64,000 nucleotides of DNA from Thioalbus denitrificans (GTDB taxonomy: Bacteria; Pseudomonadota; Gammaproteobacteria; DSM-26407), in the NCBI RefSeq assembly GCF_003337735.1, contig NZ_QPJY01000001.1:206150-270149 (forward strand), read 5' to 3'. Position 1 is the first letter of the stretch, and each line of letters starts with the position of its first letter. The position numbers were made by a program, and so were the translations under genes. The notes under the pieces are model-generated. The model saw only the letters and a list, made by a program, of their open reading frames with translations. It searched no databases and was not told where the DNA came from. Positions 6,855 through 9,890 of the stretch are shown one piece after another.

Positions 6855-7021
6855 GGGTCCTCCGGGAAGTCGGTCGAATCGGGTATCGGCGCCCGCGCTG
6901 GCGCATGGAAGTGCAGTAGTGTACTGCGCCGCCGTGGCCGGTGCATGCGCTCTCCCGTCCGCGGGGTTCCGGACCCGGTGCCGGGGGCGATGGCCGGGGC
7001 TTCGACCGACGCCGCCCGATT

Positions 7022-7123
7022 CACCACGAAGGCACGAAGTGCACGAAGAAAGAGGCAAATGGCGATCGAGGCCCTATCGGCAGATCTTCCGACTCCCTTC
7101 GTGCGCTTCGTGTCTTCGTGGTG
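7022..7123. repeat. Inverted micro-repeat hairpin, CACGAAG family
   Basis: The left arm (7022-7049) is built of CACGAAG-type units and the right arm (7096-7123) is its inverted copy with about four mismatches in 28. It lies in the long gap between fmt and the sigma-54 regulator. It is one of seven arrays of 7-9 bp units found in intergenic gaps of this window (see 33664, 38012, 54546, 55766, 58572, 60053). No coding sense. Confidence 0.75.
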
Positions 7124-7197
7124 CAACGCTTCTTTCTGGAAATGCCCCCGTTACACCGAACGCGCCCCGGGCAAGGCAGGTCGTTCCACTCGGGCGC

Positions 7198-7227
7198 AAA
7201 AAAAAACGCACCCAGTGGGTGGGTGCG
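7198..7227 (-). terminator. Intrinsic terminator of the leftward sigma-54 transcript
   Basis: Read on the minus strand: an 8-bp stem CGCACCCA / TGGGTGCG (7207-7214 and 7220-7227) with a 5-base loop, followed at once by nine Ts (7206-7198). This is a textbook rho-independent terminator. The only visible leftward unit that would use it starts at the sigma-54 promoter at 7655-7670. fmt itself begins further left and is not upstream of it. Confidence 0.85.
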
Positions 7228-7362
7228 CAAATAGGGACTGCCAGATGGAGGATTGCACTGATTCCGGTGCCGTGGCCCTCGCGGGCTGCGTTACCGACCC
7301 CCCAGTGCACAGGGGGTTAAGCTCTTTCGATTGCTGTCATGTCCCGGGCCTCGGCCTGGGAT

Positions 7363-7452
7363 TCATGCTCCCTTGCGTCCGAATACGAACAGCAGCAGCG
7401 TGATGGTCAGGCTCGCCACGATTCCGGCGATGGTCAGACTGTCCAGGCACAT
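7363..7452 (-). CDS. Putative 29-residue single-pass membrane peptide
   Basis: An ATG at 7450-7452 opens a 29-codon frame ending in TGA. The peptide has a short polar start (MCLDS), one continuous hydrophobic segment (about residues 6-24, TIAGIVASLTITLLLFVF) and a positively charged end GRKGA. This is the layout of a bitopic small membrane protein such as the accessory peptides of membrane complexes. It lies between a sigma-54 promoter (7655-7670) and an intrinsic terminator (7198-7227) and is the only plausible peptide I find in that transcript. The ribosome site is weak (purine-rich but no GGAGG), so translation is not certain. I do not recognise a family, and the function is unknown. Confidence 0.5.
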   Translation of the reverse strand: MCLDSLTIAGIVASLTITLLLFVFGRKGA

Positions 7453-7654
7453 TGCTTTGGCTTCGCTCTCGCTTGCGGTCGGTCAAATCGGGTGGAGATG
7501 CCAGTATCTCCGCCATCTCTGATACACTTACACTCTGTGCGGGTTTGCCTCGCGCGGCCAATCGAAAACCCACGCTGCAAGCCTTGCTGAACCAGCCCGC
7601 CCGGAAGTGCAAAGGGTGATTCGCTGAATCCGGTTGCTCTTGGTCGCAATACCA

Positions 7655-7670
7655 AGCAATCCATGTGCCA
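7655..7670 (-). promoter_or_regulatory. Sigma-54 (-24/-12) promoter
   Basis: The minus strand reads TGGCACATGGATTGCT, which matches the RpoN consensus TGGCACG-N4-TTGCW at all but one base, with correct GG/GC spacing. Transcription would start near 7644 and run left through the 29-codon gene to the terminator at 7198-7227, an RNA of about 440 nt. A sigma-54 activator with intact GAFTGA is encoded divergently at 7944-9299. Confidence 0.75.
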
Positions 7671-7722
7671 TGTTTTTTATATACCCTGATGCGGACATGG
7701 AAAATGCAGTGAAATTCGTGAG

Positions 7723-7750
7723 TTGATATATGCCGTCCGTTTTGTAATAA
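7723..7750 (+). promoter_or_regulatory. Possible sigma-70 promoter of the sigma-54 activator gene
   Basis: TTGATA (7723-7728), 16 bp, TAATAA (7745-7750) in a locally AT-rich stretch about 190 bp before the regulator start. This is a plausible but unproven -35/-10 pair. Confidence 0.35.
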
Positions 7751-7882
7751 ATTGTAACAGAAGGATTTTTGTCCTATAGCCAGAGACTTGTCGCCACTGC
7801 GCCCCATGGCGTGCCGGCTCCATCGTGGATATTCCGGCCCGGGCATTGGCCCTGTTTTTTATCCGTGTAAAGGGCAAAATGC

Positions 7883-7927
7883 TGTCATTATTGGCAGACA
7901 AGGCGCATAATCCTGCCATATTTGGCA
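7883..7927. promoter_or_regulatory. Paired TGYCA-N4-TGGCA operator-like palindromes
   Basis: Two inverted repeats of the same form, TGTCA-TTAT-TGGCA (7883-7896) and TGCCA-TATT-TGGCA (7914-7927), lie 31 bp apart, three helical turns, immediately before the activator gene at 7944. The second is the core of a longer perfect 10-bp palindrome, 7909-7932. Spacing and symmetry suit two dimers of the Fis-type DNA-binding domain of that activator. They would act as enhancer sites for the leftward sigma-54 promoter about 270 bp away and as an autoregulatory site. Confidence 0.6.
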
Positions 7928-7943
7928 GGATTCCGGGTTCGCC

Positions 7944-9299
7944 ATGAATAGCATTGCCTCTCCCTCGCTCCCCCTCCCCGGCCTGGAGGCCGTCCTCGAC
8001 TCCTTTCCGGAACCGATGGTGCTGCTCGATCGCGACTATCGGGTGGTGGCGGCGAATGAGACCTATCTGCGGGACTACCAGGATGACGTGCCCGTGGCGG
8101 GGCGTTGCTGTTACGAGGTGTCGCACCACTATGACCGCCCCTGCGACCAGGTGGGCGAGGATTGTCCGCTGAGCGAGAGTCTGCGCAGCGGGCAGATGCA
8201 CCGGGTGCTGCACGTACACCACACCCCGCGCGGCCATGAGCATATCGAGGTGGAGACCCTGCCCATCCGCGGCGGGAGCGGTGAGGTGGAGTTCTTCCTC
8301 GAGCTGCACCGGCGGGTGCGGGGGTTCGCCGCCGAGCCCGGCAGTCCCGGGCTCGTGGGGCGCTCGCAGGCCTTCAACCGCATGCTGGAGCTGATCCAGC
8401 GGGTCGCGTCCAGCGAGACGGCGGTGCTGCTGCAGGGGGAGTCGGGGACGGGCAAGGAGCTGGCGGCCAAGGCGGTGCACCTGGCCAGCCCGCGCTCCCA
8501 GGGCCCCTTCGTGCCGGTGGAGTGTTCCGGCCTGACCGAGTCGCTGTTCGAGAGCGAGTTGTTCGGCCATGTGCGGGGGGCGTTCACCGGCGCCCACAGC
8601 CAGAAAGTGGGCCTGGTGGAGTCGGCCCGCGGGGGGACGCTGTTCCTGGACGAGGTGGGGGATGTGCCGCTGGGGCTGCAGGTGAAGCTGTTGCGCCTGC
8701 TGGAGACGCGCACCTACCGGCGGGTGGGCGACGTGGAGACCCAGAATGCCGATTTCCGCCTCATCTGCGCCACCCACCGCGGCCTGAAGGCCATGGTGGG
8801 CGAGGGGTCCTTCCGCCGCGATCTCTTCTATCGCATCAGCACCTTCCCGATTCACCTCCCCGCCCTGCGGGAGCGGCACGAGGATCTGCCGCTGCTGGTG
8901 CATACCCTGCTGCGGCGCATCGCGCCGGCCCGGCGCCTGCGGCTCGATCCGGCCGCCATGAACTGCCTGTTGCGCTACGCCTTCCCGGGCAATATCCGGG
9001 AGCTGCGCAACATCCTCGAGCGCGCCACCCTGCTGTCCGACGGGGAGGTGATCCGACCGGAACACCTGCCTGAAGTCTGCGATGGGGGGGAGACGGCGGA
9101 GGTCCTGCCGCCCCGGTTCCGCCAGATCCTGCCCCTGGAGGACCTGGAGCAGGCCTACCTGCGCTGGGCTTCGGCACGCTTCCCCGGGAGCAAGAAGGAG
9201 CTGGCCGAGCAGCTGGGCCTGAGCGAGCGCACCCTCTATCGCAAGCTCGCCGAGGCCGATGGCAGCGCAGGAGCGGTGGCGGGGGATTCCCCGCCGTGA
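7944..9299 (+). CDS. PAS-AAA-Fis sigma-54-dependent activator
   Basis: Enhancer-binding protein of 451 residues: an N-terminal PAS-type sensor (about 12-130), a sigma-54 activating AAA+ domain (about 140-375) and a Fis-type helix-turn-helix at the end ([19 protein letters not shown]). The AAA+ domain has Walker A GESGTGKE, an intact GAFTGA loop and Walker B LFLDEVGD, so it should work with RpoN, unlike the NtrX-like protein at 321. The PAS domain carries a cysteine-rich stretch ([16 protein letters not shown] and GEDCPL) often seen in such sensors and possibly a metal or redox site. It has no receiver domain and no kinase partner nearby. The likely target is the divergent sigma-54 promoter at 7655-7670. 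The ligand is unknown. Confidence 0.88.
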
Positions 9300-9386
9300 C
9301 GGCCGGGCACCCGTCGCGGCGCTGATTCCCGACCCGCGCGCCCGGTCCCGCCGGCGCAGTGGATCAGCCTCAAGTCCGACAGGCTG

Positions 9387-9890
9387 CTAGAGCGTCTGGC
9401 GGCGGACCTTCTCGAGCTTCTTGCGGATGCGCTGGCGCTTGAGCGGCGAGAGGTAGTCCACGAACAGCTTGCCCTCCAGGTGATCCATCTCGTGCTGGAT
9501 GCAGACCGCCAGCAGGCCGTCGGTGTCCAGCTCGAACGGGTTGCCGTCGCGATCCAGCGCCCGGACCCGGATCCGCTCCGCCCGCTCCACCGGCTCGTAG
9601 ATGCCCGGCACCGAGAGGCACCCCTCCTCCATCTGCTCCATTCCCTCCGCCGCCAGGATCTCGGGATTGATGAGGCACAGCGGCTGGTTCTTCTCCTCGG
9701 AGATGTCCACCACCAGGATGCGTTTCTGGATGTTGACCTGGTTGGCGGCCAGCCCGATGCCCGGTGCGTCGTACATGGTTTCGAGCATGTCGTCGACGAT
9801 GCGCCGGATCGAGTCGTCGACCCGCTCCACCGGCTTCGCCTCCAGGCGCAGCTGCGGGTCGGGATAGTGCAGGATGTGAAGTATGGACAT
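9387..9890 (-). CDS. def: Peptide deformylase
   Basis: Protein of 167 residues that removes the formyl group from nascent peptides. All three metal/active-site motifs are present: [17 protein letters not shown] (Cys ligand) and QHEMDHLEG (His ligands and catalytic Glu). Normal family length. It is read leftward, divergent from lysM, and is separated from fmt by the sigma-54 locus. Its 3' end abuts a short sequence (GTCCGACAGGCTGCTAG, about 9373-9389) that I recall as a common intergenic motif in related genomes; this recollection is not checked. Confidence 0.97.

Follow-up and report, generated by a model that had tools for sequence, protein, structure and literature searches.

A predicted sigma-54-dependent gene for a conserved small membrane protein beside a FisR-like activator in Thioalbus denitrificans

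Introduction

FisR, as described in Cupriavidus and Acinetobacter, is a sigma-54 activator of SQR and PDO genes, and in Acinetobacter a FisR governs an SQR/PDO operon that is divergent and has a predicted sigma-54 promoter (PMC7315123). Among small membrane proteins, CcoM is a 36-residue subunit of the cbb3 oxidase of Pseudomonas stutzeri (PDB 5djq chain N; PMC10433244), and YoaI of E. coli is a 34-residue membrane protein that activates EnvZ-OmpR (PMC11853020). Annotation overlooks such proteins, and guessing what they interact with is difficult.

Here we analyze a locus in which an activator gene is divergent from a short unit on the minus strand, within a stretch of 64,000 nucleotides (hereafter, the window). 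Judging from the sequence, this locus most plausibly encodes a small membrane protein of a genuine, conserved kind, controlled by a sulfide-sensing switch of known type. In a preliminary description, RpoN control of a tiny membrane protein was said to match no known system. This holds for the peptide family, as neither the target nor the family was found described in the literature searched, but not for the regulator, whose FisR-like type is already known.

The activator and the peptide unit are flanked by def (9890-9387) and fmt (minus strand, start near 6855), within window positions 6855-9890. In Gammaproteobacteria, def and fmt are usually adjacent; neither gene was found near the other FisR-like loci that we fetched. 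Between the terminator of the unit and fmt, a 32-nt inverted repeat of the CACCACGAAG...CTTCGTGGTG type was seen at 7017-7048 and 7097-7128.

Results

Reading the sequence directly confirmed all of the elements first proposed for the locus, namely the promoter, a unit of about 440 nt, the terminator, the 29-residue frame and the divergent activator. The sigma-54 promoter TGGCACATGGATTGCT (7655..7670, minus strand) reads TGGCAC-ATGGA-TTGCT from 7670 to 7655, with correct spacing of the GG and GC elements, and relatives carry one at a comparable position. From the GC at -13/-12, the +1 position is predicted at 7644. The intrinsic terminator (7198..7228, minus strand) has a 9-bp stem, a 5-nt loop and nine T and, taken together with the promoter, implies a predicted transcript of 445 nt (7200..7644, minus strand), of which the first 192 nt (7453..7644) form the leader. 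In the 4.14 Mb genome, a pattern search for TGGCAY-N5-TTGCW gave 21 sites, as compared to 3 for the reversed control, and a divergent sigma-54 site is found at the same place in 25 of 56 homologous activator loci when a somewhat looser pattern is used. The promoter, initially called near-consensus, is therefore beyond chance. Another frame of the same transcript, of 59 codons (MAEILASPPDLTDRK..., 7337-7516, minus strand), overlaps that of the peptide; it is part of a listed open frame of 169 codons and probably arose by chance.

The activator (7944..9299, plus strand) contains the Pfam domains PAS_4, Sigma54_activat and HTH_8. These domains and the intact GAFTGA motif bear out the earlier claim of an RpoN activator, while its assignment to the FisR-like class is new. 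Its layout is that of FisR, with a PAS-type sensor, an AAA+ domain carrying GAFTGA, a Fis-type HTH and no receiver domain. The sensor region holds Cys56, Cys67 and Cys74, spaced by 11 and 7 residues, and nearly every one of about 58 aligned homologues retains all three. In Cupriavidus FisR, the cysteines are C53, C64 and C71, with the same spacing. The window activator shares three sensor-region cysteines with the FisR of Cupriavidus, whereas Acinetobacter FisR is without them (PMC7315123).

For comparison, 80 homologous activator loci (L001-L080) were fetched and the content of the divergent slot was counted over 56 of them. In 38 of these 56 loci, the slot is taken by SQR, the sulfide:quinone oxidoreductase (15), a cytochrome bd-type oxidase (12) or persulfide dioxygenase (11). 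Together with the divergent sigma-54 sites, this layout matches that known for FisR (PMC7315123). On the strength of domains and cysteines, the activator is FisR-like, a type of sulfide-sensing switch already known, and is predicted to respond to sulfide or sulfane sulfur. As its target here is the peptide unit, and as no SQR, PDO or cyd gene adjoins the locus, it is called FisR-like and not a functionally proven FisR.

Two candidate upstream activator sites, TGTCATTATTGGCA (7883..7896) and TGCCATATTTGGCA (7914..7927), lie 31 bp apart in front of the activator gene and follow the pattern TGYCA-N4-TGRCA. This pattern is enriched upstream of FisR-like genes, with 20 distinct sites at 15 of 38 loci, as compared to about 0.1 expected from mononucleotide shuffles, and the reverse complement of the site at 7914 is identical to sites in L001 and L044. 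Throughout the source genome, the pattern occurs 8 times, which is not above the control (7), and the only close pair is that at 7883 and 7914. Moreover, among the 21 genomic sigma-54 sites, only the peptide promoter has such palindromes upstream. As these two properties coincide, the peptide unit appears to be the sole clear target of the window activator in its genome, the regulon being judged by pattern search alone.

Other places in the same genome were considered as well. The cydAB-type oxidase genes of the window (22.6-24.3 kb, minus strand), 15 kb from the peptide unit, were rejected as an activator target, as neither a palindrome nor a sigma-54 site was found upstream of them. A second FisR-like gene (G000:C4:126037-127347; loci L084 and L115), 45% identical to the window activator, lies just downstream of an SQR gene, upstream of which an imperfect sigma-54-like site, TGGCAC-N5-GTGCA, was read by eye. 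One of the genomic sigma-54 sites (G000:C10:33777-33792, L102) is located 75 nt before a SoxY-like gene.

The frame at 7452-7363 (minus strand; feature 7363..7452) encodes MCLDSLTIAGIVASLTITLLLFVFGRKGA, with a best 19-residue mean hydropathy of 2.46. Its charges, D4 near the start and R26-K27 near the end, suggest that the C-terminus would face the cytoplasm. The ribosome-binding site, GCGAGAGCGAAGCCAAAGCA-ATG, is poor and weaker than those of related genes. When this single sequence was searched against 369 genomes of the class, one promising weak match was returned, a 40-residue protein of genome G137 (E 0.019) with M-x-x-D-S-L-T-I at the same place. A profile of the two sequences recovered members in other genomes of the order to which G137 belongs, and profiles A2 and A3 then extended the family to further members of the class, reaching 16 of the 369 genomes at E<=0.001. 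The family consists of single-pass membrane proteins of 29-46 residues, spread over Gammaproteobacteria, that begin with M-x-[FI]-D-[AST]-[LF]-T-[IVL]-[AST]-[GA] followed by one hydrophobic stretch. Most members carry cysteines in the tail, which the window copy lacks.

Profiles of hydrophobic peptides may drift when iterated, and the family was therefore checked in three ways, by leave-out profiles, codon positions and ribosome sites. Among the 1178 six-frame segments of the window, the window peptide ranks first under a profile built without it (E=1.9e-6; next best 2.2), and a profile that also omits the paralogue, the genus ortholog and G137 still finds it at 2.4e-5. In most close ortholog pairs, the third codon positions take most of the changes, for example 5 of 6 between the two genus orthologs, and 15 of 22 and 14 of 20 in two other pairs. 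Many members are preceded by GGAG-type ribosome sites. Such codon patterns argue that the family is under purifying selection. The 29-residue single-pass membrane peptide of the preliminary description is thus borne out, and it belongs to a recurring family, which that description had not seen.

Genomes often hold two or three copies. The source genome has a second member (G000:C1:705219-705311), whose ribosome site is better than that of the window copy and whose ortholog is present in the other genus genome. That genome, which is 87% complete and the only other one of the genus, gave no match to the window copy itself, so that the latter is found in one genome only. In G387, two different members lie in tandem (L208:7608 and 7973, minus strand). 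Longer proteins of about 105-150 aa at L165, L170, L162 and L169 present a related membrane segment (MAIDALSIAAIIVSL...) first and a soluble part after it. Searches of the window peptide and its family against Pfam, NCBIfam, PHROGs and PDB sequences gave nothing convincing, with no Pfam or NCBIfam model above cut-off, and the peptide and its relatives had no match in plasmid and phage sequences. Around homologous activators, the divergent sigma-54 site recurs at 25 of 56 loci, and no other family member was found among the 80 fetched loci.

Control differs between family members. Two other members have sigma-54 promoters, TGGCATAAGCGCTGCA (G137) and TGGCACGTTTTCTGCA (G393), 61 and 64 nt before the start codon, while most have none. 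Three members besides that of the window (G137, G081 and G178) adjoin other sigma-54 activator genes, an association that is suggestive only. The palindrome ATATTAG-N6-CTAATAT, at 11 or more matches out of 14, is found in 15 of 29 member upstream regions, as compared to 0.95 expected from dinucleotide shuffles. The enrichment is seen at a spacer of 6 only, and the three sigma-54 members lack this element. It is mostly placed 32-92 nt before the start codon (e.g., L168, L217, L161, L159 and L160) and in several cases seems to overlap the -35/-10 region. BigR or SqrR was rejected as its owner, as the intergenic regions of BigR-type operons on plasmids carry a different AT-rich repeat and contain no match above 11/14. 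Further neighbours include Fnr-like regulators, an EnvZ/OmpR-like pair, a type III SQR-like protein, a peroxiredoxin and a dihydrolipoyl dehydrogenase, which together give a loose redox and signalling theme.

Discussion

The reading that we favour, and that we hold to be rather probable, is that of a sigma-54-dependent gene under FisR-type control for a small membrane protein that probably joins or tunes a larger membrane complex. Its anatomy (promoter and terminator), the type of its regulator and the family membership of its product can be read from the sequence. The mechanism would run as follows. A rise in sulfide or sulfane sulfur would be sensed by the FisR-like protein, which, bound to the two palindromes some 210-260 bp ahead of the promoter, would activate sigma-54 RNA polymerase at 7655-7670. 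The resulting mRNA of 445 nt would yield the 29-residue single-pass protein, most likely joining or tuning a respiratory oxidase, a quinone enzyme or a membrane signalling protein. We infer the induction by sulfide or sulfane sulfur, the translation of the window copy and the action on a partner in such a complex. The earlier proposal of an RpoN-controlled tiny membrane protein divergent from its activator thus holds by sequence, while its suggested role as an accessory to a membrane complex is kept in inferred form, as that of a sulfide-induced accessory or modulator. Against this reading stand the weak ribosome site and long leader of the window copy, the lack of a family member at any other of the 80 FisR-like loci, the lack of a sigma-54 promoter in most members, and a similarity to CcoM and YoaI that is only slightly above shuffles; the partner is a predicted one.

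The weak ribosome site, together with the stand-alone unit, its strong terminator and the 192-nt leader, could also be taken to mean that the RNA itself is the product, i.e. a sigma-54 small RNA under FisR-like control with a logic like that of CrcZ or NrsZ, the frame being incidental or secondary. This alternative, raised in the preliminary description, gains no support, as neither the transcript (fold z -0.40) nor the leader (+0.16) folds better than shuffles, no Rfam match is found at gathering or at E<=1, and the frame belongs to a conserved protein family under purifying selection. A search of a plasmid collection gave no DNA match. A regulatory RNA is not favoured and we consider it unlikely, though translational control would be compatible with the weak ribosome site and the long leader.

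A remnant locus, whose promoter once drove a sulfide-oxidation operon, since lost or relocated, and whose transcript serves no function today, would fit the divergent slot normally holding SQR, PDO or bd oxidase genes and the present place of the genome's SQR, beside the second FisR-like gene. It would be unexpected, however, for a decaying remnant to hold a member of a conserved family framed by an unbroken promoter, a pair of activator sites and a terminator, and we rate this a shade less likely still than the RNA. Small, hydrophobic peptides, often present in two or three copies per genome and in tandem in G387, also recall stress-controlled toxins of the type I toxin-antitoxin style. Many members, nonetheless, have good ribosome sites and a shared operator, the N-terminal motif and Cys-rich tails are conserved, and no promoter-like site is found on the opposite strand within the unit; a toxin is, in our judgement, very improbable.

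Beyond the favoured reading of this locus, we tentatively propose, at somewhat less than even confidence, that reactive sulfur or oxidants lead a widespread gammaproteobacterial family of redox- and sulfur-regulated single-pass micro-proteins to tune a membrane complex of respiration or signalling. Control of the family would pass through FisR-like or other sigma-54 activators in some species and through ATATTAG-N6-CTAATAT in others. The family may be an unrecognised small player in the bacterial handling of reactive sulfur or redox stress at the membrane. It has more than 25 members and no curated model above cut-off, and the shared operator should reveal a common regulator. With a likely signal, an activator of its own and a clean promoter, the window peptide lends itself to direct tests of both induction and loss of function. 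Should its partner prove to be an oxidase or a sensor kinase, the peptide would reveal how rising sulfide leads to an adjustment of respiration or signalling at the membrane.

Of the known small membrane proteins, CcoM is likewise single-pass, and its start, MFVDNVVLAGVV, resembles the M-x-[FI]-D-x-x-T-[IVL]-A-G of the family, although the conserved Thr is absent from CcoM. Against the family profile, CcoM scores 6.8 bits, with 9 of 2000 shuffles as good; the best match of any member to the NCBIfam CcoM model is E=0.033, and CcoM was not returned among the PDB matches of the family's profile search. YoaI resembles the peptide in size, in its single pass and in being stress-regulated, and one relative of the family (L157) lies directly downstream of an EnvZ-OmpR-like pair. 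It scores 7.3 bits, with 15 of 2000 shuffles as good, and the NCBIfam YoaI model reaches E 0.71 against the trimmed G137 member. As these similarities are only slightly above shuffles, neither protein is claimed for the family. CydX, CydP and other small oxidase subunits come to mind because FisR-like loci frequently have bd oxidase genes as targets, and at L008 such an operon begins with a 60-residue membrane protein; CydX, however, has no sequence similarity to the family, and the peptide unit is not beside cydAB. For the regulator, the likeness to FisR extends over the domain layout, the GAFTGA motif and the divergent sigma-54 promoter, while the divergent unit encodes a 29-residue membrane protein in place of sulfide-oxidation enzymes.
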